Source: Candidatus Blastococcus massiliensis AP3
GTDB taxonomy: Bacteria > Actinomycetota > Actinomycetes > Mycobacteriales > Geodermatophilaceae
DNA: 64,000 nt
Direction of reading: 5' to 3'
Assembly (NCBI RefSeq): GCF_000582785.1
Contig: NZ_HG931175.1
Location: forward strand, 161,436 to 225,435
This document shows, piece by piece, positions 38,946 through 64,000 of this stretch; within the stretch, counting starts at the first letter, position 1, and the number at the start of each line of letters is the position of its first letter. The notes under the pieces are model-generated. The model worked only from the letters and a program-made list of their open reading frames with translations, was not told the DNA's origin and ran no database searches. The position numbers were made by a program, and so were the translations under genes.

Positions 38946-38948
38946 ACC

Positions 38949-39140: not shown

Positions 39141-39170
39141 GCGAGTGTCCTTTCCGATCGGGTGGGTCGG

Positions 39171-40448: not shown

Positions 40449-40487
40449 CACGGCTCCAAGGTCTGCTCCATACGGATGACGCTTAGG

Positions 40488-40512: not shown

Positions 40513-40595
40513 GTCTTGGACTCGATCACCGAATCTGTCACGGCTGGCCTCGCGAGCGGGGATTTCGGGCAGTGCGCCGTGACAGACTGTCGGCA

Positions 40596-40615
40596 CTTGT
40601 CAAAGACTCAACAAG
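40596..40615 (+). promoter_or_regulatory. Inverted repeat before the TetR gene
   Basis: CTTGT and ACAAG flank 10 nt, 22 nt upstream of the TetR start. It shares TTGTCAA with the site at the P450 promoter. Candidate TetR autoregulatory site. Confidence 0.4.
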
Positions 40616-40637
40616 GACGAGGGGACGGAGACGGCCA

Positions 40638-42401: not shown

Positions 42402-42490
42402 CGAGCGCCCTTCCATTTCTGACACACGGTGCCATAACCTGAGACGCAGGTCACAGTCGGCAATCGGCCGGCGCACGAAGGGAGATCGCC

Positions 42491-44163: not shown

Positions 44164-44193
44164 CGCCCGCCGCCTTTCTCCGAGGAGCTCGTC

Positions 44194-45192: not shown

Positions 45193-45216
45193 AGAGCCGT
45201 CGACGCCGACTCCCCG

Positions 45217-46191: not shown

Positions 46192-46355
46192 CCTGTGGGG
46201 ATTCGTCACGCACTGCGCCCTCCCCCACCCTGTCCAGCAGTCTCCGCCTACGCCTCGAGGCGGCGTGGTCGAGCGGCATGCCCGCACCTTGCGCGTCCCG
46301 TCCGGAGGGACTGTCAGGCGCAGCCGCAGGAGCACGCGGCCACTGTGCAGGAAAC

Positions 46356-46399
46356 GGCGACGGCGCGTGCTCCCCGGGCGGGGAACACGCGCCGTCGCC
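46356..46399. terminator. Large bidirectional terminator hairpin
   Basis: A perfect 14-bp stem (46356-46369 with 46386-46399) encloses a CCCC/GGGG inner stem. It sits between the convergent VWA gene and the Fe-S reductase gene, ten bases from the latter's stop. Confidence 0.75.
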
Positions 46400-46409
46400 G
46401 GTCCTTCTC

Positions 46410-48710: not shown

Positions 48711-48849
48711 CAATTCCTCCCCCGCACGCCTGACGGCGTCGGTTGACTCCCGTGCGCCGATCGGCGACGGCGAAACTCTGTGCGGTGTGCGCCTGGGGGC
48801 TCATCGCTCCGCGCCCCGGAACTCGCGCGCGAGAACGCGGCCTCGGCGA

Positions 48850-49554
48850 TCACCCGGCGTCCCCTTCCTGAGGGCTGGCGCCGTTCGGACGGCTGCTGTC
48901 CGGCTCGCGCGAGGAGCTGGCCATCCGGATTGCCATGAAGCCGCTTCGCATACCCTCCACGCCGTCCTTCTCGTCGAGGGGAGGCAGCGACTCAGCCTGG
49001 TCGGGTCCCATTGCATCGAAGACCAGGGACACGTACCGGCGCCGGTCTGCCGGCGAGGCCGGGGGCGTGGAGAGACCGACGACGAGGATGCTGAGCACAC
49101 GCGGGATGTCGTAGGGCTGCAGGTCCGCCCGGATCTCGTTCCTCTCCTGCGCGTGCCGCAGCAGGACGGCGAAGGGCTCCAGGAACTCCCTCAGCAGGTC
49201 GTCGGTCAGCACCGCGAAGTCAGCGGACGAGGCGATCAGTCCGCGCTCCCGGTCGAGTAGCTCCAGCAGTCGCTCGACGATCAGCAGGAACGACTGCCGG
49301 GCGCTGCCTTGGGCGCACGACTGACGAAGCAGGGGCAGGAGCTCGTCCCGCATGATCGATCGGTACACCGCCCGGGTCAGGCTCTCCCGGCCGGAGAAGT
49401 GGCGGTACAGGGTGGCGATCCCGACTCCGGCTTCGCTCGCGATCTCCTCCAGCGAACCCTGACCACCGGAGGCGAACACCTTGCGGGCGGCCGCGATCAA
49501 CCGTTCGCTGTTCGCGAGGGCGTCTCGCCGCCGTGTACTCGCCGGCGGTGTCAT
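48850..49554 (-). CDS. TetR-family regulator, divergent from the MMPL gene
   Basis: The protein has 234 residues from the ATG at 49554 with AGAGGA upstream. The helix-turn-helix contains LEEIASEAGVGIATLYRHFS at about 35-54. A Ser/Pro-rich tail ends the protein. A palindrome lies between it and the divergent MMPL gene. It probably represses the exporter until a ligand binds. Confidence 0.87.
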   Translation of the reverse strand: MTPPASTRRRDALANSERLIAAARKVFASGGQGSLEEIASEAGVGIATLYRHFSGRESLTRAVYRSIMRDELLPLLRQSCAQGSARQSFLLIVERLLELLDRERGLIASSADFAVLTDDLLREFLEPFAVLLRHAQERNEIRADLQPYDIPRVLSILVVGLSTPPASPADRRRYVSLVFDAMGPDQAESLPPLDEKDGVEGMRSGFMAIRMASSSREPDSSRPNGASPQEGDAG

Positions 49555-49639
49555 GGCAGGGGATCCTCTCAGCCGACGCGAGCGGCACCCGCAGTACCGC
49601 TGGAGACCACCGGCTGCAGCCAGGGCCTTCCGTGCATAC

Positions 49640-49653
49640 GATAGCTCCCTATC
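49640..49653. promoter_or_regulatory. Palindrome between TetR and MMPL genes
   Basis: GATAG and CTATC flank CTCC. On the minus strand a TATCGT -10-like box overlaps the left arm. Likely operator of the TetR regulator. Confidence 0.45.
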
Positions 49654-49717
49654 ACTTCTGGTCTTCCACGGTGCCCTCATGGGAGCCGTGACGCACTGAC
49701 CGGCTCTGGGGGCTGCG

Positions 49718-52078
49718 GTGTCGACATTGCTGTACAGGGTGGGGCGGGCGACGTATCGGCACCCGTTCCGTGTGGTCGCGGTGTGGGTGGTGCTGCTGGT
49801 CGCGCTCGTCGGCGCACTGGCCCTCAATCCCCCCAAGCTGAGCACGGAGTTCCGCATCGACGGGACACCGGCCCAGGAGGTGATCGACGAACTGGCCCGG
49901 GAACTCCCGGAAGTGAGCGGCGGTCAGGGTTCGCTGGTGTTCCAGGCGTCGTCCGGCGAGCGTCTCGACTCGGACCGGCTCGCCCCGGTGGTCGCCGAGG
50001 CCGTTCAGGGCGTCTACGGGATCGATCCGGTCGTGGATCCGGCCGAACTGACCGGAGCCCGAGAGCCAGGGGGCCCGCCCGCAGCCGGTTCCCCGGGCGA
50101 CGTACCGCAGCCTCCCGGCGCGGCGGCTGTCGCGCCGGGGGCATTGGTCGTGGACGGCCGGCCGATCCCGGGCGTGATGGTGTCCGAGGACGGCCGCGTC
50201 GCGCTGTTCCAGTTCCAGTTCGAGGACCAGCTGTTCGAGCTCCCCCAGGGCACCGTGGCCGACACCGTCGCAGCGGCGGAGGCACCGGCGGAAGAAGCGG
50301 GGGTGGCCGTGCTTCCGGGCGCCACCCTGCAGGAGATCCCCGAGATCATCGGCATCGGGGAGATCGTCGGCCTCGCCGTGGCGGCCCTGGTCCTCGTCGT
50401 CACGCTCGGCTCCGTGGTTGCCGCCGGGCTGCCGCTGCTCACCGCCCTGGCCGGGGTCGGCGCGGGCATCGGCGGCGCCTTCGCGCTGGCCCACCTGTTC
50501 GAACTGAACTCCTTGTCCGTGGTCCTGGCGCTGATGCTGGGGCTCGCCGTAGGCATCGACTACGCCCTGTTCATCGTCAACCGGCAGCGGTGGCTCATCC
50601 TGACCCGCGGTCTGGACGCAGGAGAAGCCGCGGCCCGAGCCGTGGGCACCGCCGGAAGCGCCGTGTTCTTCGCCGGAACGACTGTCGTCATCGCGCTCAC
50701 CGGGCTGTTGGTCGTGGGTATCGAACTGCTGACGGTGATGGCGCTCATCGCCGCCGCGACAGTCGCCATCGCCGTCGTGGTCGCCCTGACCCTGCTTCCG
50801 GCCCTGCTCGGCCTGGTCAGGGAACGCATCTGCTCACCTCGCGCCCGGGCACACCAGGCCCGGCCCGGCGACCGCTCCCGGAGCCCGGCGCGTCGCTGGG
50901 TCGGGCTCGTCGTGCGACACCGCTGGGCGGCCGTCCTCCTGGTCACCGGGGTCACCGCGCTGCTCGCCCTGCCGCTGTCCAGCATGCGGCTCGGGATGCC
51001 CTCGGCCGAGAGCTACGGCAGCGGCAGCGCACAGCGCGAAGGTTATGACGTGGTCGCCGAGGGCTTCGGCGAAGGCTTCAACGGGCCGCTGACCGTGGCC
51101 GTGCGGACCGCCGAGCCGGGCGCACCGATCGAGCCGCCGACTCTGGAGCAACTGGCGGCAGACCTCGACGCGCTCGAGGGCGTCCAGACGACCATGCCCG
51201 CCGGCGCCAGCCAGGACGGCACCATCGCGGTTCTGCAGGTCGTTCCGACCACGGGTCCGACCGACGAGGCGACCGAGGACCTGGTCGCGGAGATCCGCGA
51301 CCGCTCGACGCAGTACGCGGGCGACCTCGGGGTCACCCTCGGCGTCACCGGCCTGACAGCCATCGGCATCGACATGTCCGAGCGACTGTCCGAGGTGCTG
51401 CCCCTCTACCTGGCGGTCGTCCTCGGCCTGTCGCTGATCGTGCTGCTCCTGGTGTTCCGGTCCGTCCTCGTCCCGATCAAGGCGACAGTCGGGTTCCTGC
51501 TCAGCATCCTGGCGACGTTCGGGGCGACGACGGCCGTCTTCCAGTGGGGCTGGCTCAACCAGGTGTTCGGGCTCGACAGCACCACCGTGGTGATGAGCGT
51601 GATCCCGATCATCGCGACCGGCGTGCTCTACGGGCTGGCGATGGACTACCAGATCTTCCTGGTCTCCTCGATCCGCGAGTCCCACGTCCACGGAAGTCAC
51701 GGAGCCGACAGCGTCACCGACGGGTTCACCCAGGCGAGCCGCGTGGTGGTCGCTGCGGCGATCATCATGACTGCGGTCTTCGCCGGCTTCATCTTCAACG
51801 CCGACCCGACGGTCAAGCAGGTCGGCTTCGCGCTCGCCGTCGGCATCCTGATCGATGCGTTCCTGATCCGGCTCACCCTGGTCCCGGCGGTCATGGCCAT
51901 GTTCGGCGACCGGGCCTGGTGGCTGCCCGCATGGCTCGACCGGCTCCTCCCCGACCTCGACGTCGAAGGTGAGAAGCTCCTCCAGCGGCTCGACGAAGAG
52001 CGCGGGGAGGTTCCCGCCGCCACGGATCAGCCTGGTCGGGAGCCGGCGTCGATCCCCGCGGGGGGAGGATCCCGATGA
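49718..52078 (+). CDS. MMPL/RND-family exporter
   Basis: The protein has 786 residues from a GTG at 49718. It shows helix 1, an extracellular domain with an unusual Pro/Gly/Ala insert (about 110-145), helices with GIDYALFIVNRQR, a second extracellular domain, and a final helix set with AMDYQIFLVSSIRE. The soluble tail is about 50 residues. MMPL exporters move lipids or hydrophobic compounds. It is likely controlled by the divergent TetR gene and is coupled to a small membrane protein. Confidence 0.9.
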   Translation: MSTLLYRVGRATYRHPFRVVAVWVVLLVALVGALALNPPKLSTEFRIDGTPAQEVIDELARELPEVSGGQGSLVFQASSGERLDSDRLAPVVAEAVQGVYGIDPVVDPAELTGAREPGGPPAAGSPGDVPQPPGAAAVAPGALVVDGRPIPGVMVSEDGRVALFQFQFEDQLFELPQGTVADTVAAAEAPAEEAGVAVLPGATLQEIPEIIGIGEIVGLAVAALVLVVTLGSVVAAGLPLLTALAGVGAGIGGAFALAHLFELNSLSVVLALMLGLAVGIDYALFIVNRQRWLILTRGLDAGEAAARAVGTAGSAVFFAGTTVVIALTGLLVVGIELLTVMALIAAATVAIAVVVALTLLPALLGLVRERICSPRARAHQARPGDRSRSPARRWVGLVVRHRWAAVLLVTGVTALLALPLSSMRLGMPSAESYGSGSAQREGYDVVAEGFGEGFNGPLTVAVRTAEPGAPIEPPTLEQLAADLDALEGVQTTMPAGASQDGTIAVLQVVPTTGPTDEATEDLVAEIRDRSTQYAGDLGVTLGVTGLTAIGIDMSERLSEVLPLYLAVVLGLSLIVLLLVFRSVLVPIKATVGFLLSILATFGATTAVFQWGWLNQVFGLDSTTVVMSVIPIIATGVLYGLAMDYQIFLVSSIRESHVHGSHGADSVTDGFTQASRVVVAAAIIMTAVFAGFIFNADPTVKQVGFALAVGILIDAFLIRLTLVPAVMAMFGDRAWWLPAWLDRLLPDLDVEGEKLLQRLDEERGEVPAATDQPGREPASIPAGGGSR

Positions 52079-52506
52079 CCCTCGCGCGGTGGGGACGACG
52101 GTTGATCACCGGATCCGCCGTAGCGTCGGCGACCCTCCCCTGGCTCGCCGACTGGAACCACGGCCACACCTTCGGTCCCGAGTACGGTCCGCACGCCCGG
52201 TGGCACGGGACCTCCGAGGTCCTCGGTGCGACGGCGGAGGGAGTCCTCGCCCTCTGGCTGCTCCGTGCCGCCGGCGACGAGCATCGGCCCGACGAGCGTC
52301 TGCTCGTCGCCGCCGCACTGCTGCCCATCGTCCGCTGGGCGCCGTTCAACCTCACGCTGCTGGTGCCCGGGACGTCCCCCTACGACCAGCACCGCATCCC
52401 GCAACGGGTCCTGGGCATGCCGGCCGCCCTGCTCAGCCAGGACCTCATCGCGGCCACCGCCGCCGCCGGGCTGCTTCTACGCCGCCTCGCCCGCCGGCGC
52501 CCGTAG
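52075..52506 (+). CDS. Small membrane protein coupled to the MMPL gene
   Basis: The protein has 143 residues with an ATG overlapping the MMPL stop (ATGA). Three or four hydrophobic helices are visible, with His/Trp residues near the first loop (WLADWNHGHTFGPEYGPHARWHG). No family recognised. Coupling suggests an accessory subunit of the exporter. Confidence 0.72.
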   Translation: MTLARWGRRLITGSAVASATLPWLADWNHGHTFGPEYGPHARWHGTSEVLGATAEGVLALWLLRAAGDEHRPDERLLVAAALLPIVRWAPFNLTLLVPGTSPYDQHRIPQRVLGMPAALLSQDLIAATAAAGLLLRRLARRRP

Positions 52507-52514
52507 GGCCGCGG

Positions 52515-52534
52515 GCGGCCGGCCGTCCGGCCGC
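52515..52534. terminator. Hairpin between convergent genes
   Basis: GCGGCCGG and CCGGCCGC form a perfect 8-bp stem with loop CCGT, nine bases after the small membrane protein gene and 20 bases from the hydrolase stop. It can serve both directions. Confidence 0.6.
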
Positions 52535-52554
52535 TCGGCGAGCGCTCTGCAGGT

Positions 52555-53283
52555 TCAGCCGGCAGCAGGGTCCCCGTCGTGGAGGTGGTGGGAGAAGAAG
52601 CCGAGGATCCGCCGCCAGGCGTCCTCCGCGGATGGATGGTGGTAGCCGAAGCCGGCCACCCGCTCGAGGACGGCGAGTGGCCCGGCGTTGTGCCGGTTCA
52701 TGAAGGAGTGGCCGGCCTGTGGGTACTCCTTGACGTCGTGGTCGACCGCGAGGCCGGTCAAGGCCTCGTCCAATCGCTCGGCCGCACCGGGCAGGGTCCT
52801 GTCGCGACCCCCGTAGCTGGCCACCACGGGGCACGCGCCCTGCAGCACGCGCTCGAGGTCCGATGGGATCTGCCCGTAGTTCGGGGCCGAGGCGTCGAAG
52901 CCGCGGGTGGCTGCGAGCAGGGCGAAGCCGCCCCCCATGCAGAAGCCGAGGATTCCCACGCTCCCAGTGCAGTCGGAGCGCCCCGTGAGCCAGGAACGGG
53001 CAGCCGCCAGATCGTCGAAGGCCGGACCTTCTCCACGGGCCAGCGTCCGGAACGTCGAGCGAAGGCAGCGGACAGCTCCCCCGGCGCTGAACAGGTCCGG
53101 CGCCAGGGCCAGGTAGCCGCCGGCCGCCAGGCGGTCGGCCTGCTGCCGGGTGTCGTCGGTGAGTCCGAAGGCCTCGTGCACCACCACGACGCCGGGCCAC
53201 GGGCCCGTGCCGACCGGCGGTACGGCGAGATAGGCCTTCAACTGCGAGGCGCTCGCGGCCCCGCCGATCGTCGTCTCGGGCAT
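52555..53283 (-). CDS. Dienelactone hydrolase family protein
   Basis: The protein has 242 residues from the ATG at 53283 with GGAGG five bases upstream. The nucleophile elbow GFCMGG has Cys115, and the C-terminal AGHSFMN holds the His of the Cys-Asp-His triad. Family members open lactone rings in aromatic or terpene catabolism in the cytoplasm. The upstream extension of the frame overlaps the next gene and is rejected. Confidence 0.88.
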   Translation of the reverse strand: MPETTIGGAASASQLKAYLAVPPVGTGPWPGVVVVHEAFGLTDDTRQQADRLAAGGYLALAPDLFSAGGAVRCLRSTFRTLARGEGPAFDDLAAARSWLTGRSDCTGSVGILGFCMGGGFALLAATRGFDASAPNYGQIPSDLERVLQGACPVVASYGGRDRTLPGAAERLDEALTGLAVDHDVKEYPQAGHSFMNRHNAGPLAVLERVAGFGYHHPSAEDAWRRILGFFSHHLHDGDPAAG

Positions 53284-53335
53284 CACGGCCTCCGGGGTCA
53301 AGTACCAGTCGATGAGCTGTGGGGCAGGCCCGGCG

Positions 53336-54409
53336 TCACATGGACGCCCGCAGTTCCTCGGCGGCCGCCTCCAGGAACTCCACGGCCTCCTCCTCCAGGC
53401 CGGGCAACCGGTCGGCCACCTCCGCCACGGCAGCGACCCGGTCCGACAGCGGGGTGTCGACTCTGGCAGACCGGCCCAGCCGGCTCCAGCCTTCGGCGCA
53501 CCTGTCGTAGGCGAGGCCCGCCTGTTCGCTCGCCGCGCTCCCCGTCCGCCTGGCCACGTCATGGCAGCACTCGGCCTGCAGCCGACGGAACAGCCCACCC
53601 CCGGTGCCCGCCTTCTCGATGAACACGGGGAGGGCAGCCAGCGCGGACTCCAGGGTCACGTCGTCGAGGACCTGCGGCCAGCGGGCCAGGTCGTCGGCGA
53701 ATCGGCGGATGCCGGCCAGCCCGGCTGCACTGATCGAGCCCGGCGGCAGGTCAGGGCGGTTCGCCAGCCCGGAACCCCCGCTGCGCATCCCGGCCCCCGC
53801 GGCGGCGAACGCGTCCGCAGCGGTGGAGCGCAGGTCCGGAAGCCGCTCCGGCCACTCCACGGCGAACGTCGCGTGCCGTGTGGGCGCCGGGAACCCCGTC
53901 GAGCGGCGCGCCCGGGCCAGCGCCGCGTAGGGCACCTCCTGGACGTCCTCGCGGTCGTTGTCGACGACGTAGGCGATCTCCCGCTCGTCGTCGTAGCCGA
54001 CGATGACGACATCGTGCCGGCTCATCTGCAGCCGGACGCGGAGGTAAGGGAGCTCGGCGATGTCAGCCCACACCATGACGGGCCGGCCGGCGACCAGCTC
54101 GTCGCGGACCCACTGCCACCCCAGCGCCTCATCATCGGTACGCCGCAGGTCCACGCCGGCTCCGAGGCGACCGAGCAGGTCCACCTCCATGTCTCCTCCC
54201 CTGCCGACGAGGTAGACCGGCGGGGTCAGGCCCGGCACCCGCATGTACGAGAAGTGCAGTGCACCACCGAGGCCGAACACCAGGCCTTCCGCGGCCGCCT
54301 CCCCTCCCCAAGCAAGGCCGGCCCACTCCAGCAGATCCCGCAGGGCTCCGGATCCGCAGTGCCCGGCCATGCGGTGGGGGTAACCCTCCAGCAGCCGTCC
54401 CCCGGTCAC
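53336..54409 (-). CDS. BtrH N-terminal / DUF4872 protein
   Basis: The protein has 357 residues from a GTG overlapping the thioesterase stop. The N-terminal half (about 10-160) starts GHCGSGALRDLL with Cys18 and has a cysteine-protease-like fold as in BtrH, an acyl-transfer enzyme of butirosin biosynthesis. The C-terminal half (about 185-355) is DUF4872-like and helical. A role in acyl transfer or hydrolysis fits its coupling to a thioesterase gene. The substrate is unknown. Confidence 0.72.
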   Translation of the reverse strand: MTGGRLLEGYPHRMAGHCGSGALRDLLEWAGLAWGGEAAAEGLVFGLGGALHFSYMRVPGLTPPVYLVGRGGDMEVDLLGRLGAGVDLRRTDDEALGWQWVRDELVAGRPVMVWADIAELPYLRVRLQMSRHDVVIVGYDDEREIAYVVDNDREDVQEVPYAALARARRSTGFPAPTRHATFAVEWPERLPDLRSTAADAFAAAGAGMRSGGSGLANRPDLPPGSISAAGLAGIRRFADDLARWPQVLDDVTLESALAALPVFIEKAGTGGGLFRRLQAECCHDVARRTGSAASEQAGLAYDRCAEGWSRLGRSARVDTPLSDRVAAVAEVADRLPGLEEEAVEFLEAAAEELRASM

Positions 54410-54915
54410 GGTGCCACCCTCACCACGTCGCCGCCGCCACGAGCGAAGTGCTCCCGGCCGACGACGACGAAGACGGCGTTCGCTTCGACGACGAGCGCGC
54501 CCCCCTCGTCGGTGCCCTGCGCCCGGACGAACAGCTTCCTGCCCTCCCGGCGCTGTAGTCCGGCCTCGAGCAGATACGGGGTTCCGAGCAGCACCGGCGC
54601 CCGGTAACCGACCTCGAGATGGCGGGTGACAGCGGGCTCCCCGATCCGGTAGAGGAGGAAGCCGAACAGGTCGTCCAGCACCGTGGCGACCGCGCCACCG
54701 TGCGCGATGCCCGGCGCGCCGACATGCCGCTCGTCGAAGGCGTGCTCGGCGCGGACCGCGTCCCCTTCTCGCCAGACCTGCAGGTGGTGGCCGTGTGGGT
54801 TCTCCGGGCCACAGCCGAGGCAGCGTGGATGGTGCGGGGGCAGGTCTCGGGCATGGTCGTGCCCGGCGAACCCCCGCGCCCAGTCGCCGACCACCGAATT
54901 CACGTCGTCCACCAC
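54406..54915 (-). CDS. PaaI-type hotdog thioesterase
   Basis: The protein has 169 residues. A hotdog domain contains GIAHGGAVATVLDDLFG, the acyl-CoA thioesterase helix. CLGCGPENPHGHHL near the start is a common leader in this family and may bind a metal. Three consecutive GTG codons occur near the start; AGGAGG points to the one at 54915 or 54912. It hydrolyses acyl-CoA esters in the cytoplasm. Confidence 0.85.
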   Translation of the reverse strand: MVDDVNSVVGDWARGFAGHDHARDLPPHHPRCLGCGPENPHGHHLQVWREGDAVRAEHAFDERHVGAPGIAHGGAVATVLDDLFGFLLYRIGEPAVTRHLEVGYRAPVLLGTPYLLEAGLQRREGRKLFVRAQGTDEGGALVVEANAVFVVVGREHFARGGGDVVRVAP

Positions 54916-55024
54916 CACTGCCTCCTGTCGGACCCGTCTGATTGAGATTTCACGCGTGCACACTCCGGCCCGTGCGTCCCGGCGAGCCGGATGGGGGCAA
55001 CTTCGGCGTCGCCGACCGGCGTGC

Positions 55025-56572
55025 TCAGCGGTGTACCGCCGCTTCTCCTCCGCCGTGCTGCTGCCGCAACACCGTCTTCAGCACCTTGCCGGTGGCGTTG
55101 CGCGGGAGCTCGGCGACGAACTCGACCCGCGTGGGGCACTTGAAGTGTGCGAGCCGTTCGCGGGCGTACGCGATCAGTTCCTCGGCCGTCGTCGCGGCGC
55201 CGTCCTGGAGCGCGACGACGGCCACCGGTGTCTCCCCCCAGCGGTCGTGGGGGACGCCGACGACAGCCACCTCGCGGACGGAATCATGCCGGTAGAGCAC
55301 CTGCTCGGCCTCGATGGGGTACACGTTCTCGCCACCGGTGATGATCATGTCCTTCTTGCGGTCGACGAGCGTCATGAAGCCCTCGGGGTCCATGCGCCCG
55401 AGGTCGCCGGTGTGGAACCACCCACCGCGGAATGCCTCGGCCGTGGCCTCCGGTAGACCCCAGTAGCCGGCGAACACGTTGGGTCCGCGCAGCACGAGCT
55501 CTCCGACCTCCCCGGTGCGGACGTCCCTGTCGGCGTCATCGACGATGCGCGCCCGGACGTGGAACATCGGCCGGCCGATGGAACCCGCCTTCTCCTTGAC
55601 GTGGTCGGCGTCCAGCACTGACACACCGGGCGCTGTCTCGGTCATCCCGAAGCCCTCCTGGAAGGGCAGTCCCTTCCCCTGGAAGAAGTCGATGACCGGC
55701 AGCGGGCACGGCGCTCCCCCGGACACTGCCAGCTCCAGCGACGACAGGTCGAAGTCGTCCAAACCGGGCACCGACATGAGCGCCGCCCACATCGCCGGGA
55801 CCATGAACTGCACGGTGGTCCGCTCCCGGGACATGGCCTCCACGGTCCGGAGCGGATCGAACGACGGCAGCAGGACGTTGGTCCCGCCGACGTAGAGCAG
55901 CGGCAGCGTGTGGACACCCAGGCCACCGATGTGGAACATCGGCGCCACTGTCACCGTGACGTCGCTCTCGCGAAGCCCTCGGCCGAAGGAGAGACTGTTC
56001 ACGACGTTCCACAGGTGGTTGTCGTGGGTCAGCATCGCCCCCTTGGGACGTCCCGTGGTCCCGGACGTGTACATCAGACAGGACAGGTCCCGACGGTCGA
56101 CGTCGGTATCCACGGGCCGGGGATCGCCGCTGCTCAGCACCTGCTCGTAGTCGAGCTCCCCGTCCTCGGGCTCTCCGCCGACGACCAGGCGGGACCGGAC
56201 CCGCACCCCGTCCGCGGTGACTGCTGCGCGCGCCACTGGCGCGAGGGGCGCCGAGTACACGAAGGTGTCCGACCCAGAGTCGACCAGGAGGTAGGCGACC
56301 TCCGCCGGCCCGAGCCGCACGTTCATGGGCACGAACACAGCCCCCAGCTTCGCGGTGGCCAGCATGGTCTCGAGGAACGCTGTGCTGTTGAGCAGGAGCC
56401 CGGCGACCCGGTCCCCTTGGCGGACCCCGAGCGCACGCAGCGCTCGGGCCAGCTGATCGATGTTCCTGTCCAGCTCGGCATAGGTGAGGCGCCGGTTTCC
56501 GTCCACCAGTGCGAGCCGGTCCCCGGACAGGAACGCCCTCGTGGCGACCCAGCCACCGATTCCCTCGTCCAT
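55025..56572 (-). CDS. Acyl-CoA synthetase (AMP-forming)
   Basis: The protein has 515 residues. The AMP-binding loop YTSGTTGRPKG is at 168-178, GFGMTE and GWFHTGDLG follow, and NATGKVLK near the end has the catalytic lysine. It activates a carboxylic acid with ATP and CoA. The ATG at 56572 has GAGGG upstream. Two palindromes in the gap to the divergent TetR gene suggest repression. The next downstream gene, a thioesterase, may undo or balance its reaction. Confidence 0.92.
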   Translation of the reverse strand: MDEGIGGWVATRAFLSGDRLALVDGNRRLTYAELDRNIDQLARALRALGVRQGDRVAGLLLNSTAFLETMLATAKLGAVFVPMNVRLGPAEVAYLLVDSGSDTFVYSAPLAPVARAAVTADGVRVRSRLVVGGEPEDGELDYEQVLSSGDPRPVDTDVDRRDLSCLMYTSGTTGRPKGAMLTHDNHLWNVVNSLSFGRGLRESDVTVTVAPMFHIGGLGVHTLPLLYVGGTNVLLPSFDPLRTVEAMSRERTTVQFMVPAMWAALMSVPGLDDFDLSSLELAVSGGAPCPLPVIDFFQGKGLPFQEGFGMTETAPGVSVLDADHVKEKAGSIGRPMFHVRARIVDDADRDVRTGEVGELVLRGPNVFAGYWGLPEATAEAFRGGWFHTGDLGRMDPEGFMTLVDRKKDMIITGGENVYPIEAEQVLYRHDSVREVAVVGVPHDRWGETPVAVVALQDGAATTAEELIAYARERLAHFKCPTRVEFVAELPRNATGKVLKTVLRQQHGGGEAAVHR

Positions 56573-56600
56573 GCGCCACCCTCTTCGTCGGGACAACAGT

Positions 56601-56618
56601 CCGTGACCCAGGTCACGG
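56601..56618. promoter_or_regulatory. Perfect palindrome upstream of the acyl-CoA synthetase
   Basis: CCGTGACC and GGTCACGG flank CA, a perfect 18-bp site 29 nt upstream of the synthetase start. The GTGACC/GGTCAC core is a typical dimer target. Confidence 0.55.
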
Positions 56619-56632
56619 CAGCTTGGTCCAAA

Positions 56633-56650
56633 CTTGACGGTGTCGTCAAG
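56633..56650. promoter_or_regulatory. TetR-type operator, copy 1
   Basis: CTTGACG and CGTCAAG flank GTGT, a perfect 7-4-7 inverted repeat, 36 nt before the TetR start. The same architecture recurs at 59776-59793. Confidence 0.6.
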
Positions 56651-56685
56651 ATGGAGCCCGCGGCCATCGGCGGAAGGGACGGAGC

Positions 56686-57354
56686 ATGACCTCGGCAGGA
56701 CCTGCGTCACCTCCGGCCACGGCGCGTGGCCGCCGCACCCGATCCGCACTGCTGACGGCCGGACGGCAGCTGTTCGAGGAGTGCGGGTTCTCCGCCGTGG
56801 GGATCGATGACATCGCCTTACGCGCGGGGGTCTCCCACGGCACGTTCTACACGTGGTTCGACTCCAAGGAGACGTTGCTCCGCGAGATCGTCAGCGAGGT
56901 CGCCGCAGAGGTCTTCTCGGCGACCTCGATCGGTACCCGCCTGCCGGCCAAAGCTGCGTACGCGCGCATCGAGGCCGCCAACCGGTCCTTCCTGCGTGCT
57001 GTCACCCGGCACTCCCGCATCCTCCGAGTGCTGGACTCGCTGGCGGACACCCAGGAGGACTTCCGACAGCTCCGCTCGGAGATGCGTGAGTCGTTCGTCC
57101 AGCGTGGGATGGAGGGCCTGATCCGGCTGCAGGAGCTGGGCCTGGCCGACCCGCTGCTGCCACCGCGGGCGACGGCCAGCGCGCTGGGCGCGATGGTGGA
57201 GTCCTTCGCCCACGTGTGGCAGGACCCGGTGGAAGAACTCGACGAAGCCGCCGCCGTCGACGTCCTCACCCGGTTGTGGGCGGGGGCGATAGGTCTGGCG
57301 CCGCCGGCCCGACCCGCCGGTGAAGGCACCGCCGAGAGCCCCGGCGCGGGCTGA
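56686..57354 (+). CDS. TetR-family regulator of acyl-CoA genes
   Basis: The protein has 222 residues. The helix-turn-helix has IDDIALRAGVSHGTFYTWFD at about 40-59, and the C-terminal domain is of the TetR_C type. AAGGGACGGAG precedes the ATG. It is divergent from the acyl-CoA synthetase, and its likely operator sequence also occurs before the acyl-CoA dehydrogenase gene, so it may run both. Confidence 0.88.
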   Translation: MTSAGPASPPATARGRRTRSALLTAGRQLFEECGFSAVGIDDIALRAGVSHGTFYTWFDSKETLLREIVSEVAAEVFSATSIGTRLPAKAAYARIEAANRSFLRAVTRHSRILRVLDSLADTQEDFRQLRSEMRESFVQRGMEGLIRLQELGLADPLLPPRATASALGAMVESFAHVWQDPVEELDEAAAVDVLTRLWAGAIGLAPPARPAGEGTAESPGAG

Positions 57355-57398
57355 CCCTGCTGGGACCGCCGAGGGACCGCGCGGGGCGGCCCGGCCGG

Positions 57399-58463
57399 TC
57401 AGTGCTGCACCCAATGCCACGGCGTCTCGCGGCTGCGCCGCACCCGACCCCTGCTCTCCAGGAGAACCAGGTGCGCCAGGGTCTCGGCAACAGCCGCTCT
57501 GCGCATGAAACCCGAGATCTGCTGCCATGGCCGCGACCAGCTCAGCGCGGCGGTCAGCTCCCAGGTCGTGGGCGCCGTCGTCACAGCAGCGTGGATCTCC
57601 TGCAGTCGGGCGTCGTGGTGGCCCACCAGCGCCGACACGCGCGCCGCCAGACCGGCGAAGCGGTACTCGTGCCCGGGCAGCACCTCGTCCAGGTGGGAGT
57701 CCAGCGCCCCGACACGCGCCAGGGAATCGATGAAGTCGGCCAGCGGGTTGCCGCCCGACTGCGCGTGCACCCCGATGTTGGGTGTGATGCGGGGCAGGAC
57801 GTGGTCGCCGGAGAAGAGGAGGCGACGACGGTGCTCGTGGAAGCACAGGTGCCCGGGCGAATGGCCGGGAGTGTGCACGGCACGCAGATCCCATCCAGGC
57901 AAGGGCAGCCGGTCACCGTCGCGGATGAGGCGGTCCGGTTCGGCCTGGCGGACGTAGTCGGCGATCTGCAGCGAGGCCCCGGACAGGACCCGGAGCTCGT
58001 CCTCGGGCACTCCGCAGTTCCGCAGCAGTGCGACCATGCCCTCCAGCAGGTCGGTGATGCCGGCCCCGTACCGGGCCGGCAGCAGCGCAGCGTCGTCGGG
58101 ATGCAGCCCCACCCAGGCCCCTGACGCCTCACGGACCCGGCCCGCCAGGCCGTAGTGATCGGGATGGATGTGCGTCACCATGACGCCGCGGACGTCGGCG
58201 ACCACGTACCCCGCCGTCGCCAGGCCCTGGGTGAGGGCTTGCCAGGCGTCGTCGGTGTCCCACCCGGCGTCGATCAGTGCCACCCCGTCATCGAGCTCGA
58301 GGGCGTAGACGAGGACGTAGCGCAGGGGGCTGTCGGGAATGGGCACCGGGATCGACCACAGCCCCTGCTGGACCCGCTCCACCGGCGGCAGTACGTTTTC
58401 GACCCACGCCCGTTGCTGCTTGACGCCGGTGACCCACAACGGGCCGGCGGACCCCGCGGTCAC
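57399..58463 (-). CDS. MBL-fold hydrolase
   Basis: The protein has 354 residues from a GTG overlapping the dehydrogenase stop. The metal motif THIHPDHYG gives HxHxDH at 98-103, with HTPGHSPGH and LPGHE later. A C-terminal helical domain of about 90 residues is typical of the lactonase/thioesterase-like MBL group. It may open a lactone or thioester formed by the nearby acyl-CoA enzymes. Confidence 0.88.
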   Translation of the reverse strand: MTAGSAGPLWVTGVKQQRAWVENVLPPVERVQQGLWSIPVPIPDSPLRYVLVYALELDDGVALIDAGWDTDDAWQALTQGLATAGYVVADVRGVMVTHIHPDHYGLAGRVREASGAWVGLHPDDAALLPARYGAGITDLLEGMVALLRNCGVPEDELRVLSGASLQIADYVRQAEPDRLIRDGDRLPLPGWDLRAVHTPGHSPGHLCFHEHRRRLLFSGDHVLPRITPNIGVHAQSGGNPLADFIDSLARVGALDSHLDEVLPGHEYRFAGLAARVSALVGHHDARLQEIHAAVTTAPTTWELTAALSWSRPWQQISGFMRRAAVAETLAHLVLLESRGRVRRSRETPWHWVQH

Positions 58464-59629
58464 AGACCCATCCGCTTGCTGATGACCTCGTTCATGATCT
58501 CGTTCGCCCCGCCGCCGATGCCGAGTATCCGGGCGTCCCGGTAGTGCCGTTCGACCTCCGACTCCCGCATGTATCCCATGCCGCCGAAGATCTGCACCGC
58601 CTCGTCAACCACGAAGTCACAGGCGTAGACGGCGGTGTTCTTCGCCATCGACACCTCGGTGACGACGTCCTCCCCGGCCAGGTAGCGCTGCGCCACAGCT
58701 CGCGTGTAGGTGCGGGCGACGTCGACCTGACGCGCCATCTCGGCGAGCTTGTGCCGGATCACCTGTCGAGAGGAGAGCGGCCGCCCGAAGGTCTCCCGGT
58801 CCCGCGCCCACCCGAGGGCCAGGTCCAGGGCGCGGGCCGCGGTGGCGTAGGCCTGGACTGCCAGGCCGATCCGCTCGCTCTGGAACTGCTGCATGATCTG
58901 CACGAAGCCGGAGTTCTCTGTGCCCACCAGCTGCGCGGCCGGCACGCGGACGTCGGTGAAGGCCAGCTCGGCTGTGTCGCTGCACCGCCAGCCCATCTTG
59001 TCCAGCCGCCGGGAGACGCTGAACCCGGGCGTGTTCGTGTCGATGACGAGCAGCGAGACACCGCCGTGACCCGGTCCGCCGGTGCGCACAGCGGTGGTCA
59101 CGAAGTCGGCGCGGACCCCGCTGGTGATGAAGGTCTTGGCTCCGTTGACCACGTACTCGTCGCCTTCGCGCACGGCCCGGGTGCGCAGATTTGCGACATC
59201 CGAGCCCCCGCCGGGCTCGGTCACCGCGAGCGAACCGATCAGCTCCCCGGCCAGCGTGGGTCGGACGTAGCGGTCGACCAGCTCGGCGCTGCCGTGGGCG
59301 GCGATGTGCGGCACGGCGATGCCGTGGGTGAACAGCGAGGCACAGACACCTGTGGACCCACCCCCGTGCAGGATCTCCTCGGTCATGACCGCCGAGTCGA
59401 TCGCGTTGCCGCCGCTGCCGCCCACCTCTTCGGCGAACCCGACGCCGAGCAGGCCCGCGCCGGCCGCCTTACGGTGCAGATCGCGCGGCAGCTCGCCATC
59501 CCGTTCCCACTCGGCCATGTTCGGAGCGATCTCCCGGGCCACGAAGTCGCGGGCGAGCCGGCGGAGGGCCACCCGCTCGGGCGTGCTCCATGGGTCGGGG
59601 GCGTGCGCGGTGACGTCGGTAGGGCTCAT
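58460..59629 (-). CDS. Acyl-CoA dehydrogenase
   Basis: The protein has 389 residues from the ATG at 59629 with GGAGGAG upstream. VTEPGGGSDVANLRT is the FAD and substrate signature. RDARILGIGGGANEIM is the C-terminal signature, where the usual catalytic Glu position reads Gly, so the base may sit elsewhere, as known for some family members. It oxidises an acyl-CoA and passes electrons to ETF, fitting the EtfD gene in this window. Confidence 0.9.
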   Translation of the reverse strand: MSPTDVTAHAPDPWSTPERVALRRLARDFVAREIAPNMAEWERDGELPRDLHRKAAGAGLLGVGFAEEVGGSGGNAIDSAVMTEEILHGGGSTGVCASLFTHGIAVPHIAAHGSAELVDRYVRPTLAGELIGSLAVTEPGGGSDVANLRTRAVREGDEYVVNGAKTFITSGVRADFVTTAVRTGGPGHGGVSLLVIDTNTPGFSVSRRLDKMGWRCSDTAELAFTDVRVPAAQLVGTENSGFVQIMQQFQSERIGLAVQAYATAARALDLALGWARDRETFGRPLSSRQVIRHKLAEMARQVDVARTYTRAVAQRYLAGEDVVTEVSMAKNTAVYACDFVVDEAVQIFGGMGYMRESEVERHYRDARILGIGGGANEIMNEVISKRMGL

Positions 59630-59990
59630 GACTGCTCTCCTCCGGTCGGTCCTCCCGCAGCTGGTACACAGGCGGCCGCGTGCATGTCGAGCAGGGCCGC
59701 GATGCACCCTCCGCGCCTCGAACGACGTGAGCCACTACGACACCTCAAGCAGGTCGTAGGGACGGCCACGGAGGACTTGACGTCACCGTCAGGTTAGTCG
59801 TCCGTGGATGTGGCGCACAACACCCGCATCGTTCGCGCCGGCCATTCCGACAGCGGACTCGCAGCGCCGAGAGGCTCCGGTTGCGCTGGCTGCAGCGGTG
59901 GCGGATGTCGGCTCCACTACGCGCGATCCACCACGTCCTGCGGGAGCGGGAGTACCGCCAGATCGCCCACCAGTGCGGTAGGGAGAACGC
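59630..59990. other. Gap between dehydrogenase and EthD genes
   Basis: These 361 nt hold the operator-like repeat at 59776-59793 and probably the two divergent promoters. A frame ending on the EthD start is discussed under rejected items. I see no supported gene. Confidence 0.5.
59776..59793. promoter_or_regulatory. TetR-type operator, copy 2
   Basis: CTTGACG and CGTCAGG flank TCAC. It has the 7-4-7 layout of the site at 56633-56650 with one mismatch in the right arm. It lies about 147 nt upstream of the acyl-CoA dehydrogenase start. Confidence 0.5.
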
Positions 59991-60302
59991 ATGACGCACA
60001 GATTGCTCGTCCAGTACGGCCGTCCGACGGACCCTTCTGCGTTCGACCAGCACTACCGCGACGTCCACGTCCCGCTCGCACGGAAGATCCCCGGCGTGGT
60101 GCGCTTCGACATCGGCCACGCCAACGCTCTGGACGGCGACACCGCGCCGTACCTGGTTGCCGTGCTCGACTTCGCCTCCGCCGAGGCGTTCGCTTCCGGC
60201 ATGGGGTCCCCCGAGGGCACGGCCGCCGCCGGCGACGTGCCGAACTTCGCCACCGGCGGCGCGAGCATGAGCCACTACGACATAGAGGACTTCACTCCCT
60301 GA
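59991..60302 (+). CDS. EthD-family small protein
   Basis: The protein has 103 residues. YRDVHVPLARKIPG with the conserved His near residue 25 and an Asp-rich end are typical of EthD-like ferredoxin-fold dimers, which accompany P450 and catabolic clusters. GGGAG precedes the ATG, and a terminator follows six bases after the stop. The exact role is unknown. Confidence 0.85.
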   Translation: MTHRLLVQYGRPTDPSAFDQHYRDVHVPLARKIPGVVRFDIGHANALDGDTAPYLVAVLDFASAEAFASGMGSPEGTAAAGDVPNFATGGASMSHYDIEDFTP

Positions 60303-60307
60303 GCTGC

Positions 60308-60345
60308 CGGGTGCCGTCCTCCGGTGCGACGGGGGACGGCACCCG
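60308..60345 (+). terminator. Terminator hairpin after the EthD gene
   Basis: CGGGTGCCGTCC (60308-60319) pairs perfectly over 12 bp with GGACGGCACCCG (60334-60345), six bases after the stop. Confidence 0.7.
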
Positions 60346-60480
60346 CGTCGGTCCAGGGGACTGCGCTCCCTCGACCGATTTCCCATTGCCGGCGGGCGCG
60401 GGAGGCGGCGGCGGCTCTACCGTCGCACCGGTGGGGGGGGCTCCGGTGCCGGGTCCCGGGGGCGAGCGGGGCCGCGACGC

Positions 60481-60865
60481 GGGCCCCTGCTCGTCGCCAC
60501 CGCCTCCGGCACGGTGCTGAACCCGCTCAATTCCTCGCTGATCGCCGTCGCCCTGATCCAGCTGGCGGAGGACTTCGAGCTGTTGTTCGCCTGCGTCTCC
60601 TGGATGATCTCGCTGTTCCACCTGACCAGCGCGGTGGCCCAGCCGGTCTCCGGCCGGCTCGGAGACGTGTTCGGGCCACGCCGACTGTTCCTCGCGGGGC
60701 TCGCGCCGGTCGGCCTGGCCAGCCCGCGGCGCCGCTCTCCCCCGAACTTCGCCACGCTCCTGGCCATCCGGGCGGTCCAGGCGCTGGGCAGCTCCGCGAT
60801 CTACCCCCTCCGGCATGGCGATCATCCGCCGGCTGGTCGTGGAGGGCCGGGCCCGCGCGCTGGCC
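60481..60865 (+). pseudogene. N-terminal fossil of an MFS transporter
   Basis: In frame from 60481 the translation has LLVATASGTVLNPLNSSL, then SWMISLFHLTSAVAQPVSGR and GDVFGPRRLFLAGL, the first helices of an EmrB/QacA-type MFS exporter. A frameshift at a C run near 60810 moves the sequence to [20 protein letters not shown] in the next frame. At about 60865 the transporter sequence ends and aroA sequence begins on the other strand. The C-terminal end of an MFS gene reappears at 63104. Confidence 0.75.
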
Positions 60866-61250
60866 GTCGATCAGCCCGGCGTTGGGGCGGTCGTGCAGGT
60901 CGCGGGTCGCCGTCCACGGTGACCGGGCCGTCGGCGAGGGCGGCCACCGGGGGGAGGAACCGCAGCACCGTGCCGGCCAGCCCGGCGTCGACCGTGACCG
61001 GACCGCTGAGCGTTCCGGGTGCGACCAGCCAGTCGCTGCCGTCGACGTCGTCGATGCCGACTCAGAGTGCGCCCAGGCCTGCGGCCATGAGGTCGGTGTC
61101 GCGCGCCCTGAGGGGGTGCACGAGCCGACTGGGGCCGTCCGCCAGCGCGGCGAGCACGAGTGCCCGGGCGGTCAGCGACTTCGACCCGGGCAGGGACACG
61201 ACGGCGTCGACCGGAGCAGGGTGGTGCGGCGCGGGCCAGACGTCTCTCAC
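60866..61250 (-). pseudogene. aroA: Truncated aroA (EPSP synthase) fossil
   Basis: From a GTG at 61250 the frame gives [38 protein letters not shown] and [13 protein letters not shown], which is the EPSP synthase N-terminus. An in-frame TGA then interrupts (61062), and the same frame goes on with [16 protein letters not shown] and [20 protein letters not shown] before a frameshift. Only about 130 of some 430 residues are present. Since the shikimate pathway is normally required, an intact aroA should exist elsewhere in the genome. Confidence 0.8.
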
Positions 61251-61292
61251 GAGGTCAGTCTGCCCGCCCGCGCCGCACCTCCCCGCACGTGC

Positions 61293-62744
61293 TCAGCCGG
61301 CCTGCGGCTTCTCGGTCTTCTTGACCGGGACCGTGCGGAGCAGCCGCCGGTTGGCGAACTCGAACATGGCCAGCTCGGAGAGCTCGCGGCCGTAGCCGGA
61401 CCGCTTGACGCCACCGAAGGGCAGCTCCGGGGAGGAGCCGGTGGGCTGGTTGATCCAGACCATGCCTGCCTCCAGCCGCTCGGCCACCGACCGCGCCTCC
61501 TCGGGGTTGCTGCCCATGACGGTTGCACCCAGGCCGAAGTCGCTGTCGTTGGCCAGCGCGACCGCCTCGTCGGCGTTCTTCACCTTGTAGACGACGGCCG
61601 CGGGACCGAAGAGCTCCTCGCGGTAGGCCCGCATGTCGGGAGTGACGTCGGTGAGGATCGTCGCCGACACGAACGCGCCGGCGTGATCGGGGCGCTGGCC
61701 GCCCGCGACGACGGTGGCGCCCTTGTCGATGGCGTCCTGGATCTGCGCCTGCAGGTCCGCGGCCGCCTTCTCGCTCGACAGTGGCGCGAGCGACGTCGCC
61801 GGGTCGGCCGGGTCGCCGGGGGCGAAGATGCCGAATGCCTGCTTCAGGCCCTCGACGAAGGGCTCGTAGGCGTCCTCGGTGACGATCAGCCGCTTGGAGG
61901 CGGTGCAGGCCTGCCCGGTGTTACCCATGCGCCCGGCGGTGGCCGCCTTGACGGTCGCCTCCAGGTTCTCACCGTCGAGGACGATGAACGGGTCGCTGCC
62001 GCCGAGCTCCAGCACGGACTTCTTGAGGTGCTTGCCGGCCAGGGCGGCGACCGACGAGCCGGCCCGCTCGCTGCCGGTCAGCGTCACGCCCTGGATGCGG
62101 GGGTCGGCGATGACCTGCTCGACGTCCTCGATCTTGAGGAAGGTGTTGATGAGCGCGCCCTCGGGGGCGCCGGCGTCACGGAACAGCTGCTCGATCGCCA
62201 CGGCGCACTGCGGGGTGATCTCCGAGTGCTTGAGGATGACGGTGTTGCCCAGCACCAGGTTCGGGCCGGCGACGCGGACGACCTGGTAGAAGGGGAAGTT
62301 CCACGGCTCGATGGCCAGGAGCACGCCGACGGGGCGCGTCTCGATGACGGCCTCTCCGCCGCCCATCATCGGCTCGATCGAGGTCGGCTCGAGGAACTTC
62401 GGGCCGTTGCCGGCGTAGTACTTCAGGATCATCGAGCAGAGGAAGAGCTCGCCGACGGCCTCGTCCCGGCGCTTGCCCATCTCCTTGGTGATGAGGGCGG
62501 CGAAGTCCATGACGCGCTCGTCGAGCAGCTCGGCGGCCTTCTGGACAACGGCCGCGCGCTCCTCGACCGAGCGGTCGCGCCACTCCAGGTACGCGGTGTG
62601 CGCCTGGCCGATGATGCCGTCGATCTCCGACGTCTCGGTGAAGGGGTACTCCTTCTCCGTCTCGCCGGTGAACGGGTTGACGGTCGCGTAGCGCCGCTCG
62701 GCGCTGTCGCTGGCGGTGGTGGGGGCGTTCTGCGTAGCGGTCAC
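61293..62744 (-). CDS. NAD(P)-dependent aldehyde dehydrogenase (succinate-semialdehyde type)
   Basis: The protein has 483 residues from a GTG at 62744 with GAGGAT upstream. PWNFPF at 147-152 holds Asn149, LELGGSDPF holds the general base Glu246, and GNTGQACTAS holds the nucleophile Cys280. Full length and all catalytic residues are present. It oxidises an aldehyde to an acid in the cytoplasm. It is the only intact gene of a transposed segment flanked by broken aroA and SRAP genes. Confidence 0.92.
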   Translation of the reverse strand: MTATQNAPTTASDSAERRYATVNPFTGETEKEYPFTETSEIDGIIGQAHTAYLEWRDRSVEERAAVVQKAAELLDERVMDFAALITKEMGKRRDEAVGELFLCSMILKYYAGNGPKFLEPTSIEPMMGGGEAVIETRPVGVLLAIEPWNFPFYQVVRVAGPNLVLGNTVILKHSEITPQCAVAIEQLFRDAGAPEGALINTFLKIEDVEQVIADPRIQGVTLTGSERAGSSVAALAGKHLKKSVLELGGSDPFIVLDGENLEATVKAATAGRMGNTGQACTASKRLIVTEDAYEPFVEGLKQAFGIFAPGDPADPATSLAPLSSEKAAADLQAQIQDAIDKGATVVAGGQRPDHAGAFVSATILTDVTPDMRAYREELFGPAAVVYKVKNADEAVALANDSDFGLGATVMGSNPEEARSVAERLEAGMVWINQPTGSSPELPFGGVKRSGYGRELSELAMFEFANRRLLRTVPVKKTEKPQAG

Positions 62745-62880
62745 GCGGTGATCCTCGTCTCTGGGGGGCTTGTTCCGCCTAGGCCTACCCCACGAGTGCC
62801 CGGCTGTCACGGGGCGGCCCGCTGTCAGCGGGCGCACCTACAGGGCGAGAGGTCAGCCGAACCTGTGCCAGGAGGCGCCC

Positions 62881-63104
62881 ATGTGCGGTTGCTACGCCGC
62901 CAGCCGCAAACCCGAGGACCTGGCGCTGGAGTTCGAGGCCGTACCGGCCGGCGGGCAGTCCCCGGTGCCGGCCGACTACAACGTCGCCCCGACCAAGGAC
63001 GTGCACGTCGTCCGCTGGAAGAAGGAGCGCGACGCCGAGGGCGCGCTGACCCGCGGCGTGCACCGCGAGCTCCGGGCGGTGCGCTGGGGCCTGGTGCCCT
63101 CGTG
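62881..63104 (+). pseudogene. Truncated SRAP/YedK (HMCES-like) gene
   Basis: AGGAGG precedes the ATG, and the protein begins MCGCYAASRK with the essential Cys2. It continues with NVAPTKDVHVVRW and RAVRWGLVPSW, the SRAP N-terminus. After about 75 residues the sequence changes to an MFS gene in another frame, and the frame closes at 63144. The rest of the SRAP domain, including the active-site His region, is missing, so the product is unlikely to protect abasic sites. Confidence 0.8.
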
Positions 63105-63420
63105 GAGCTGTCGAACGCGGCGACGGCGGGGCTGCTCGCGGTGATCGGCGTGAGCGTCGGATCCACCAACCTGGGGCTGCAGACGGCGTTGTACGACACG
63201 GTCCCGCCTGACGAGGTCGGGGCGGCAGCCGGCCTCTTCCAGACCTCGCGCTACCTCGGGGACCATCCTCTCGGCCAGCCTGCTGGGACTGCTGTTCGGC
63301 GACCAGATCGACACCGGGAACCTGCACCGACTGGCCTGGTGCCTGTTCGCCGTCAGCGCGCTCGTCCTGGTCCTGCACCTGCGTCTCCCGGGACGGCCAC
63401 CCGCTGCGTCCTCGACCTGA
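63104..63420 (+). pseudogene. C-terminal fossil of an MFS transporter
   Basis: Starting as VELSNAATAGLLAVIGV the frame reads TNLGLQTALYDTVPPDEVGA and AAGLFQTSRYLG, typical of the last third of an EmrB/QacA-type exporter. One extra G near 63257-63260 shifts the frame, after which LSASLLGLLFGDQ and a normal C-terminus follow to a TGA at 63418. It matches in kind the N-terminal fossil at 60481, so both are probably ends of one gene whose middle was replaced. Confidence 0.75.
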
Positions 63421-63503
63421 TCGCCCGTCCGTCATCGCCCGGCGAGGGCCCCGGCGTCATGGCAGGGTTCTGGGGGACGCGGAACCCGGCGGTGGAGGAT
63501 CGG

Positions 63504-64000
63504 ATGCCCGATCAGGCGATCGAGAGCCAAGCGCGGGAGACCGATGTCAGCGGCGTGCGGGTGCTGCTGACCGGCGGCACCAGCGGGCTGGGGCTGGGCA
63601 TGGTGCGGGCTCTGGTGGCCGATGGGGCCTCAGTGGTCCTGACCGGCCGGGACGCCGACCGCGCGCGCCGGGTCGCCGAGCAGGAGACTGCCGCCGGGCC
63701 CGGATCGGCGACCGGAATTGCGATGGACGTGCGGGACGAGGCCTCCGTCGCCGATGGCGTGGCGGCGGCGCGCGCTGCCCTGGGTGGCATCGACGTCCTG
63801 GTGAACAACGCCGGCATCGGCATGCGGACTGTCAATCCGCGGTTCCTGACCGAGCCGCGACGGTTCTACGAGGTCGCCCCGGCGGGCTTCGCCGACCTCA
63901 TTGCCACCAACGTCACCGGCTACTTCCTGGTGGCCCGCGCGGTCGTACCCGACATGGTCGCGGCGGGACACGGCACCGTGGTCAACGTCAGCATCAACGA
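63504..64000 (+). CDS. SDR-family oxidoreductase, partial
   Basis: An ATG at 63504 with GGAGG six bases upstream opens a frame that runs off the window after 165 codons. TGGTSGLGLG is the NAD(P) loop, and LVNNAGIG follows near residue 98. The visible part covers the cofactor half of a classical short-chain dehydrogenase. The catalytic Tyr-Lys lies beyond the edge. Substrate unknown. Confidence 0.85.
   Translation, partial: MPDQAIESQARETDVSGVRVLLTGGTSGLGLGMVRALVADGASVVLTGRDADRARRVAEQETAAGPGSATGIAMDVRDEASVADGVAAARAALGGIDVLVNNAGIGMRTVNPRFLTEPRRFYEVAPAGFADLIATNVTGYFLVARAVVPDMVAAGHGTVVNVSIN

Follow-up and report, generated by a model that had tools for sequence, protein, structure and literature searches.

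An aroA-aldehyde dehydrogenase-SRAP fragment, probably from a relative's chromosome, inside a broken MFS gene in the cargo of an ICE-like element of Blastococcus

The stretch of Blastococcus DNA analysed here (the window; 64,000 nucleotides, positions 161436-225435 of contig C3 in genome G000, which is 3.87 Mb in 4 contigs) was found to contain an MFS gene that lacks ~216 internal codons and has ~2.24 kb of other DNA in their place (60481-63420). In the insert, an intact aldehyde dehydrogenase (ALDH) gene is flanked by 5' pieces of aroA and SRAP. It lies on a branch foreign to its host, target DNA was lost, and the composite exists in four near-identical copies. It appears, with a probability of about 0.8, that a one-off insertion-deletion created the composite by illegitimate end joining and that the product then spread with an ICE-like element. 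In other words, a ~2.24-kb fragment of a B. aggregatus-like chromosomal aroA-ALDH-SRAP locus would have been joined into the MFS gene in some Blastococcus, and ~650 bp of that gene would have been lost at the joining. We infer that the joining was illegitimate, by Ku-type NHEJ or by microhomology joining. The four genomes may have been reached by conjugation of the element, or of its cargo via recombination between related elements.

The composite is made up of the following parts:

60481..60868, plus strand: front remnant of the MFS transporter gene (Pfam and alignment), frameshifted close to its end
60869..61250, minus strand: 5' piece of aroA, ~127 codons, interrupted by a stop and a frameshift; its junction with the MFS gene lies within ~60853-60872
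61293..62837, minus strand: intact ALDH open reading frame (ORF); the start conserved among native loci is 62744
62745..62880, no strand: spacer of the divergent ALDH and SRAP starts, which came along from the native locus
62881..63105, plus strand: 5' piece of SRAP, ~74 codons (Pfam and native-locus alignment)
63106..63420, plus strand: rear part of the MFS gene, with a frameshift

Evidence for this arrangement comes from Pfam and from alignments. The MFS_1 profile covers 60481-60840 (profile 2-105 of 347) and resumes from 63105 (profile 295-342) with 22.7 bits, under the cut-off of 33.4. Between these two matches, EPSP_synthase (profile 3-116 of 417) was matched at C3:222335-222658 on the minus strand, which is window 60900-61223 and includes one internal TGA; Aldedh spans the ORF at 61293-62837 on the minus strand; and SRAP was matched from 62881 (profile 1-69 of 214). 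In an alignment with seven native loci, homology runs from ~60853-60872 up to 63105. The sequence-only reading of this DNA had placed the boundaries at ~60865 and ~63104, within a few bases of those found. It had also described a chromosomal aroA-ALDH-SRAP segment with both outer genes cut internally and an extra ALDH copy beside catabolic genes, and both descriptions were borne out.

The front MFS remnant matches amino acids 4-110 of an intact 447-aa homologue (G393), with 60% identity over the front, and by eye the match extends to amino acid ~130 in another frame. The back remnant resumes near amino acid 346 of the same homologue, with a frame change further along. These two limits give the ~216 missing codons. 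The sequence-only reading had proposed a check for an uninterrupted MFS gene in relatives, and none close was found. The best matches outside the holders of the composite were 44-45% identical in 298 genomes of the order (part of the genus included), the best match in 394 genomes of the class was 60% identical, and a tblastn search of PLSDB plasmids returned 135 matching records, all with <60% identity. Because the closest intact homologue found is only 60% identical, the left junction is not readable exactly. None of the truncated pieces (aroA, SRAP, and MFS) is functional any longer. The aroA piece has one stop and one frameshift, and 3 of 60 otherwise invariant residues are altered in the SRAP piece.

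Is the captured ALDH kept or used? The gene is intact, and 2 of its 385 otherwise invariant residues are changed. One explanation is that the ALDH was retained for its service to the catabolic cargo. Support for such a selected capture comes from the positions of the disabling lesions, all four of which lie outside the ALDH (1,307 nt outside versus 1,452 nt inside; binomial p=0.05). When the insert alone is considered, both of its lesions lie outside (2/2, p=0.09). Likewise, conserved residues are changed more often in the outer pieces (6/143) than in the ALDH (2/385, p=0.006). However, native loci of distant relatives are biased in the same manner, with outer versus ALDH changes of 12/149 versus 7/390 in TF02-09 and 8/145 versus 12/395 in the native locus of CCUG 61487. 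Compared with three close natives, the insert ALDH has a dN/dS of 0.13-0.17, in line with native pairs (0.145 and 0.148). Against the close natives, dN/dS is low in the aroA piece (0.19-0.28) and in the SRAP piece (0.08-0.14) as well, which argues that most of the divergence predates the insertion and leaves the selection test with little power. Selection on the ALDH was downgraded because of the equal bias in distant natives and the low dN/dS of the outer pieces. Furthermore, the DNA upstream of the ALDH is conserved no better than in natives and rather worse: in the ALDH-SRAP intergenic region, 7 of 133 sites are unique in the insert versus 0, 1, and 2 in three natives. That this region changed more in the insert speaks against a preserved ALDH promoter. 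Retention by selection is a doubtful explanation, at less than even odds. The best NCBIfam match of the ALDH is NF006915, NAD(P)-dependent succinic semialdehyde dehydrogenase, at 479 bits; the cut-off is 730, so no substrate is assigned to the ALDH. Use of the extra ALDH by its hosts is possible.

How was the fragment joined to the MFS gene? A Ku gene is present in all seven genomes tested (7/7), split over two frames in G011. The longest word common to the two 70-base junction regions is 8 bp in direct and 7 bp in inverted orientation. The 8-bp repeat near both junctions was put down to chance and was not treated as significant. Heterologous DNA uptake by bacterial NHEJ was reportedly described by Dupuy et al. 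in 2019, and Hulter and Wackernagel are said to have described double illegitimate recombination in Acinetobacter in 2008. A different route would be an unrecognised transposon, an integron-like system, or another specific recombination system that moved the segment. The large serine recombinase just beyond the right end of the element could be taken to favor it, as could the fact that the Pfam scan covered only part of the element ORFs. We give this route a small chance, on the grounds that no transposase family was found in the 59 scanned translations, that no junction repeat exceeds 8 bp, and that the cuts fall inside aroA, SRAP, and MFS with loss of target DNA. The sequence-only reading had likewise seen no transposase, and the Pfam result agrees for the 59 translations scanned, which represent part of the ORFs of the element and its right edge. 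Illegitimate end joining is the probable mode of capture. The donor DNA may have arrived by conjugation, transformation, or transduction.

Where did the segment come from? An intact aroA-ALDH-SRAP copy elsewhere in the genome had been anticipated, and it was found at C2:242473-246021. The presence of this locus makes a duplication within the host's own genome thinkable, and the sequence-only reading had taken the insert as a copy of such a host segment. However, the host locus is only 87% identical to the insert and lies outside the insert clade in a maximum-likelihood tree, which contradicts this origin for G000 and makes it highly improbable. The tree contained the insert and 27 native loci, chosen from those fetched. 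In it, three native loci (B. aggregatus, G011, and DSM 44205) share a clade with the insert (support 100/100), and within this clade they split from the insert (93/99). Identity to the insert is 91.6% for B. aggregatus DSM 4725, 90.9% for the G011 native locus, 90.4% for DSM 44205, and 90.2% for B. aurantiacus. Because of the 100/100 grouping, the donor is read from the tree as the chromosome of a B. aggregatus-like relative, the exact donor lying outside the sample. It is conceivable that the segment was copied long ago in an ancestor resembling G011 or B. aggregatus, because the G011 native locus falls inside the sister clade; such an ancestor would amount to the donor proposed here.

The full 2,940 bp of the composite was found at ~99.9% identity in three of the 22 other genus genomes searched, namely G002 (Blastococcus sp. 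LR1), G004 (Blastococcus sp. CCUG 61487), and G011, so that 4 of 23 genus genomes hold it. All four holders belong to one genus in the genome grouping used. The native aroA-ALDH-SRAP stretch was matched in 23/23 genus genomes, with gaps in some of the matches. Although near-identity between species is unusual, this recurrence in three further genomes makes misassembly very unlikely, and an assembly artefact or contamination is scarcely credible against identical junctions in four assemblies of differing contiguity, cargo that in G000, G002, and G011 runs, within long contigs, into flanks of 88% identity, and four copies that differ from one another (at 5 of the 2,940 bp).

The composite sits in the cargo of what looks like a ~111-kb ICE-like element in tRNA-Leu. 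A 22-bp direct repeat, identical in its two copies, is formed by the 3' end of the tRNA-Leu and by window-relative position 77587-77608, 111 kb away. The shared cargo ends on its right exactly with this second copy. The same pairing of tRNA-Leu and 22-bp repeat is present in G011 (~110.7 kb apart) and in G002 (~101.7 kb). A tyrosine integrase of 464 aa (PF00589, E 2.7e-22) lies 100 bp from the tRNA-Leu, and the element encodes a TrwC/MobF relaxase of 1,877 aa (NF041492 at 245.8 bits, cut-off 100). TadE- and T2SSF-like genes are also present. The VirB4 family was not recognised among the element ORFs scanned, which do include an SCO6880-family protein and a TadA/VirB11-like ATPase. Among the 59 scanned translations is a large serine recombinase encoded just beyond the element's right end. 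An Rfam search at the right end returned nothing at E 0.1. Within the window, the element shows the following features:

958..2937, minus strand: TraG/TraD-type coupling protein (TraG-D_C match)
5595..7109, minus strand: SCO6880-family protein (430.8 bits, cut-off 60)
17788..19188, minus strand: TadA/VirB11-like secretion ATPase (T2SSE; all NCBIfam matches under cut-off)
14832..64000, no strand: near-identical cargo common to G002 and G011, continuing to relative 77608, 13.6 kb beyond the window

From 14,832 to relative 77,608 (62.8 kb), the cargo of G000 is 99.75% identical to that of G002 and 99.51% identical to that of G011. The element backbone from -19,376 to 14,600 has 21.9 kb of alignable sequence at 87.8% identity, and the last mismatches ahead of the identity change are at 14,697 and 14,831. 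G004 matches the G000 cargo at 98.6% over 25.0 kb aligned and has a different right end. G002 and G011 have ~89 kb of aligned sequence in common at an identity of at least 99.4%. Identity falls from 99.7% to 88% within the element, which suggests an exchange of cargo among related backbones via homologous recombination. A plasmid origin was considered and rejected, both for the composite (no PLSDB record covers 80% of it; 261 match, and the best among the matches listed covers 47% and is an ALDH at 71%) and for window 40000-64000 (no record covers 80%; 24 match, the best listed covering 5%). Viral contigs contained no exact match to a 30-base probe of the left junction.

Beside the composite lies the scar of an Atu-type operon:

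58460..59707, minus strand: acyl-CoA dehydrogenase, a surviving downstream gene of the Atu-type operon
59626..59736, minus strand: decayed remains of the 3' end of an enoyl-CoA hydratase gene, at the left edge of the putative operon deletion
59744..59825, no strand: sequence that lies upstream of the first Atu-type operon gene in G022 and G016, at the right edge of the putative deletion
59991..60302, plus strand: EthD-domain gene, adjoining the MFS remnant

G022 was taken as B. aggregatus because the native sequence is identical over the 1,200 bases compared, and G016 was likewise taken as sp. MG754426. Sequence related to the cargo is present in both genomes at 82-92% identity; it covers 38,983-41,224, then 46,421-59,720 in pieces, and continues onward from 63,420 to 68,534 in G022 (the end of the stretch fetched) or 71,426 in G016. 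No match to 41,225-46,420 was found in either genome. In place of window 59,720-63,420, they have 9.9 kb. Pfam analysis of seven proteins in the 9.9 kb of G022 identified acyl-CoA dehydrogenase, AtuA, carboxyltransferase, biotin carboxylase, acyl-CoA ligase, and enoyl-CoA hydratase. The hallmarks of an Atu operon, namely AtuA, a two-subunit biotin-dependent carboxylase, and acyl-CoA dehydrogenase, are therefore all found in G022, and G016 is 97% identical to it across the cluster.

Approximately 110 bp from the 3' end of the hydratase gene persist in the window (up to 59,736). Together with the preceding bases, this tail is 74% identical; its protein match is weak and broken (E 1e-4). Seven bp past this tail, 82 bp (59,744-59,825) are 78% identical to the G022/G016 sequence upstream of the operon's first gene. 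Judged from these two edges, ~9.6 kb of the Atu-type operon is deleted in the window lineage. The reverse event, a gain of the operon in G022 and G016, is unlikely because a hydratase tail is left in the window. The EthD and MFS genes occupy 59,826-63,420, where G022 has 179 bp, and may reflect a gain here or a loss there. AtuA-family genes are present in 10 of the 23 genus genomes, and in each of the four holders of the composite, one or more of them lie outside the element.

Actinobacteria are already known to harbor tRNA-Leu ICEs whose cargo is near-identical from species to species, and the parts of the present element are all of known kinds. ActinoRUSTI of Glutamicibacter arilaitensis JB182 is described as an ICE with iron uptake genes whose excision was shown by PCR (PMC5526665). 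As described there, it resembles the Blastococcus element in being actinobacterial, in having the tRNA-Leu 3' end repeated at its far end, and in carrying cargo near-identical between species (PMC5526665). Unlike ActinoRUSTI with its iron uptake genes, the Blastococcus element has genes of catabolic type as cargo, along with a captured piece of chromosome. Illegitimate integration with deletion is documented in Rhodococcus jostii RHA1 (PMC12169178). There, too, a non-homologous foreign fragment entered an actinobacterial genome without repeats at its ends. The RHA1 case involved laboratory plasmid DNA under selection (PMC12169178), whereas in Blastococcus a relative's chromosomal DNA would have entered a mobile element in nature. 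The G022/G016 cluster, with AtuA, biotin carboxylase, carboxyltransferase, acyl-CoA dehydrogenases, enoyl-CoA hydratase, and acyl-CoA ligase, is like the acyclic terpene utilisation (Atu) operons described in Pseudomonas (PMC4097962). It differs from them in that its core appears deleted in the window lineage and that family models left the specificity of the carboxylase undecided. A 2023 review describes ICEs for aromatic degradation as rare in Gram-positive bacteria (PMC9960961). The present element is a candidate catabolic ICE of Blastococcus, and its substrate need not be aromatic. No paper describing this element or the capture was found in the titles and abstracts of a limited, open-access literature.

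The entry of genes onto conjugative elements without flanking insertion sequences is seldom caught with so much in hand, which here comprises the junctions, an approximate donor, the corresponding site in a relative, and multiple near-identical copies. If the ALDH is expressed, the hosts would gain a second, foreign ALDH. A more far-reaching and unlikely possibility is that the ICE captured a housekeeping-type gene with its upstream region by transposase-free end joining, that selection kept the gene while its cut neighbours decayed, and that the element spread the foreign paralogue through the genus. If true, this would show the cargo of an ICE growing in nature without insertion sequences, in a case that can be dated.

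Besides the aroA fragment in the insert, the host genome (G000) carries two full-length EPSP-synthase-family genes with strong matches:

C2:185257-186474, EPSP-synthase-family gene, full-length
C2:244804-246021, EPSP-synthase-family gene, full-length

A further, weaker family match at C1:67773 may, we guess, be murA. In the tree of the aroA-ALDH-SRAP locus, the native-locus sequence L122, whose record is titled Bacillus sp. AZ43 and flagged as an unverified organism, was placed with Blastococcus. The Ku gene of G011, another genome with the insert, is split over two reading frames (C2:492166-492709), perhaps by an assembly error or because the gene is broken.

The ICE-like element also carries the following genes (relative positions count from the window start):

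L046:13692-19909 (relative -26308 to -20091), C-5 DNA methylase, Mrr/ResIII helicase and HATPase proteins
L047:13619-18064 (relative -6381 to -1936), class I tRNA synthetase-like, MntA-like and DapD-like genes

The first set likely forms a restriction or defence block. In the second, the MntA-like gene scored below the family-model cut-off, and the DapD-like gene exceeded the cut-off of one model. Within the cargo, nothing matching window 41225-46420 is present in the clusters related to it that G022 (B. aggregatus) and G016 (sp. MG754426) carry. This stretch includes:

TetR/MftR-like regulator
short-chain dehydrogenase, two diverged copies (~74% alike)
AAA protein and VWA protein genes

In G022, the 3' end of a tRNA-Leu is repeated over 23 bp at a distance of ~86 kb (C6:143840-229510), which probably marks a further island that occupies the same tRNA gene. 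At the right end of the element, the attachment repeat is overlapped by the 3' end of one gene:

L048:13589-15286 (relative 77589-79286), minus strand, large serine recombinase

The tRNA-Leu 3' end occurs a third time, as a 19-bp copy at relative 118507-118525, so there may be two elements in tandem.
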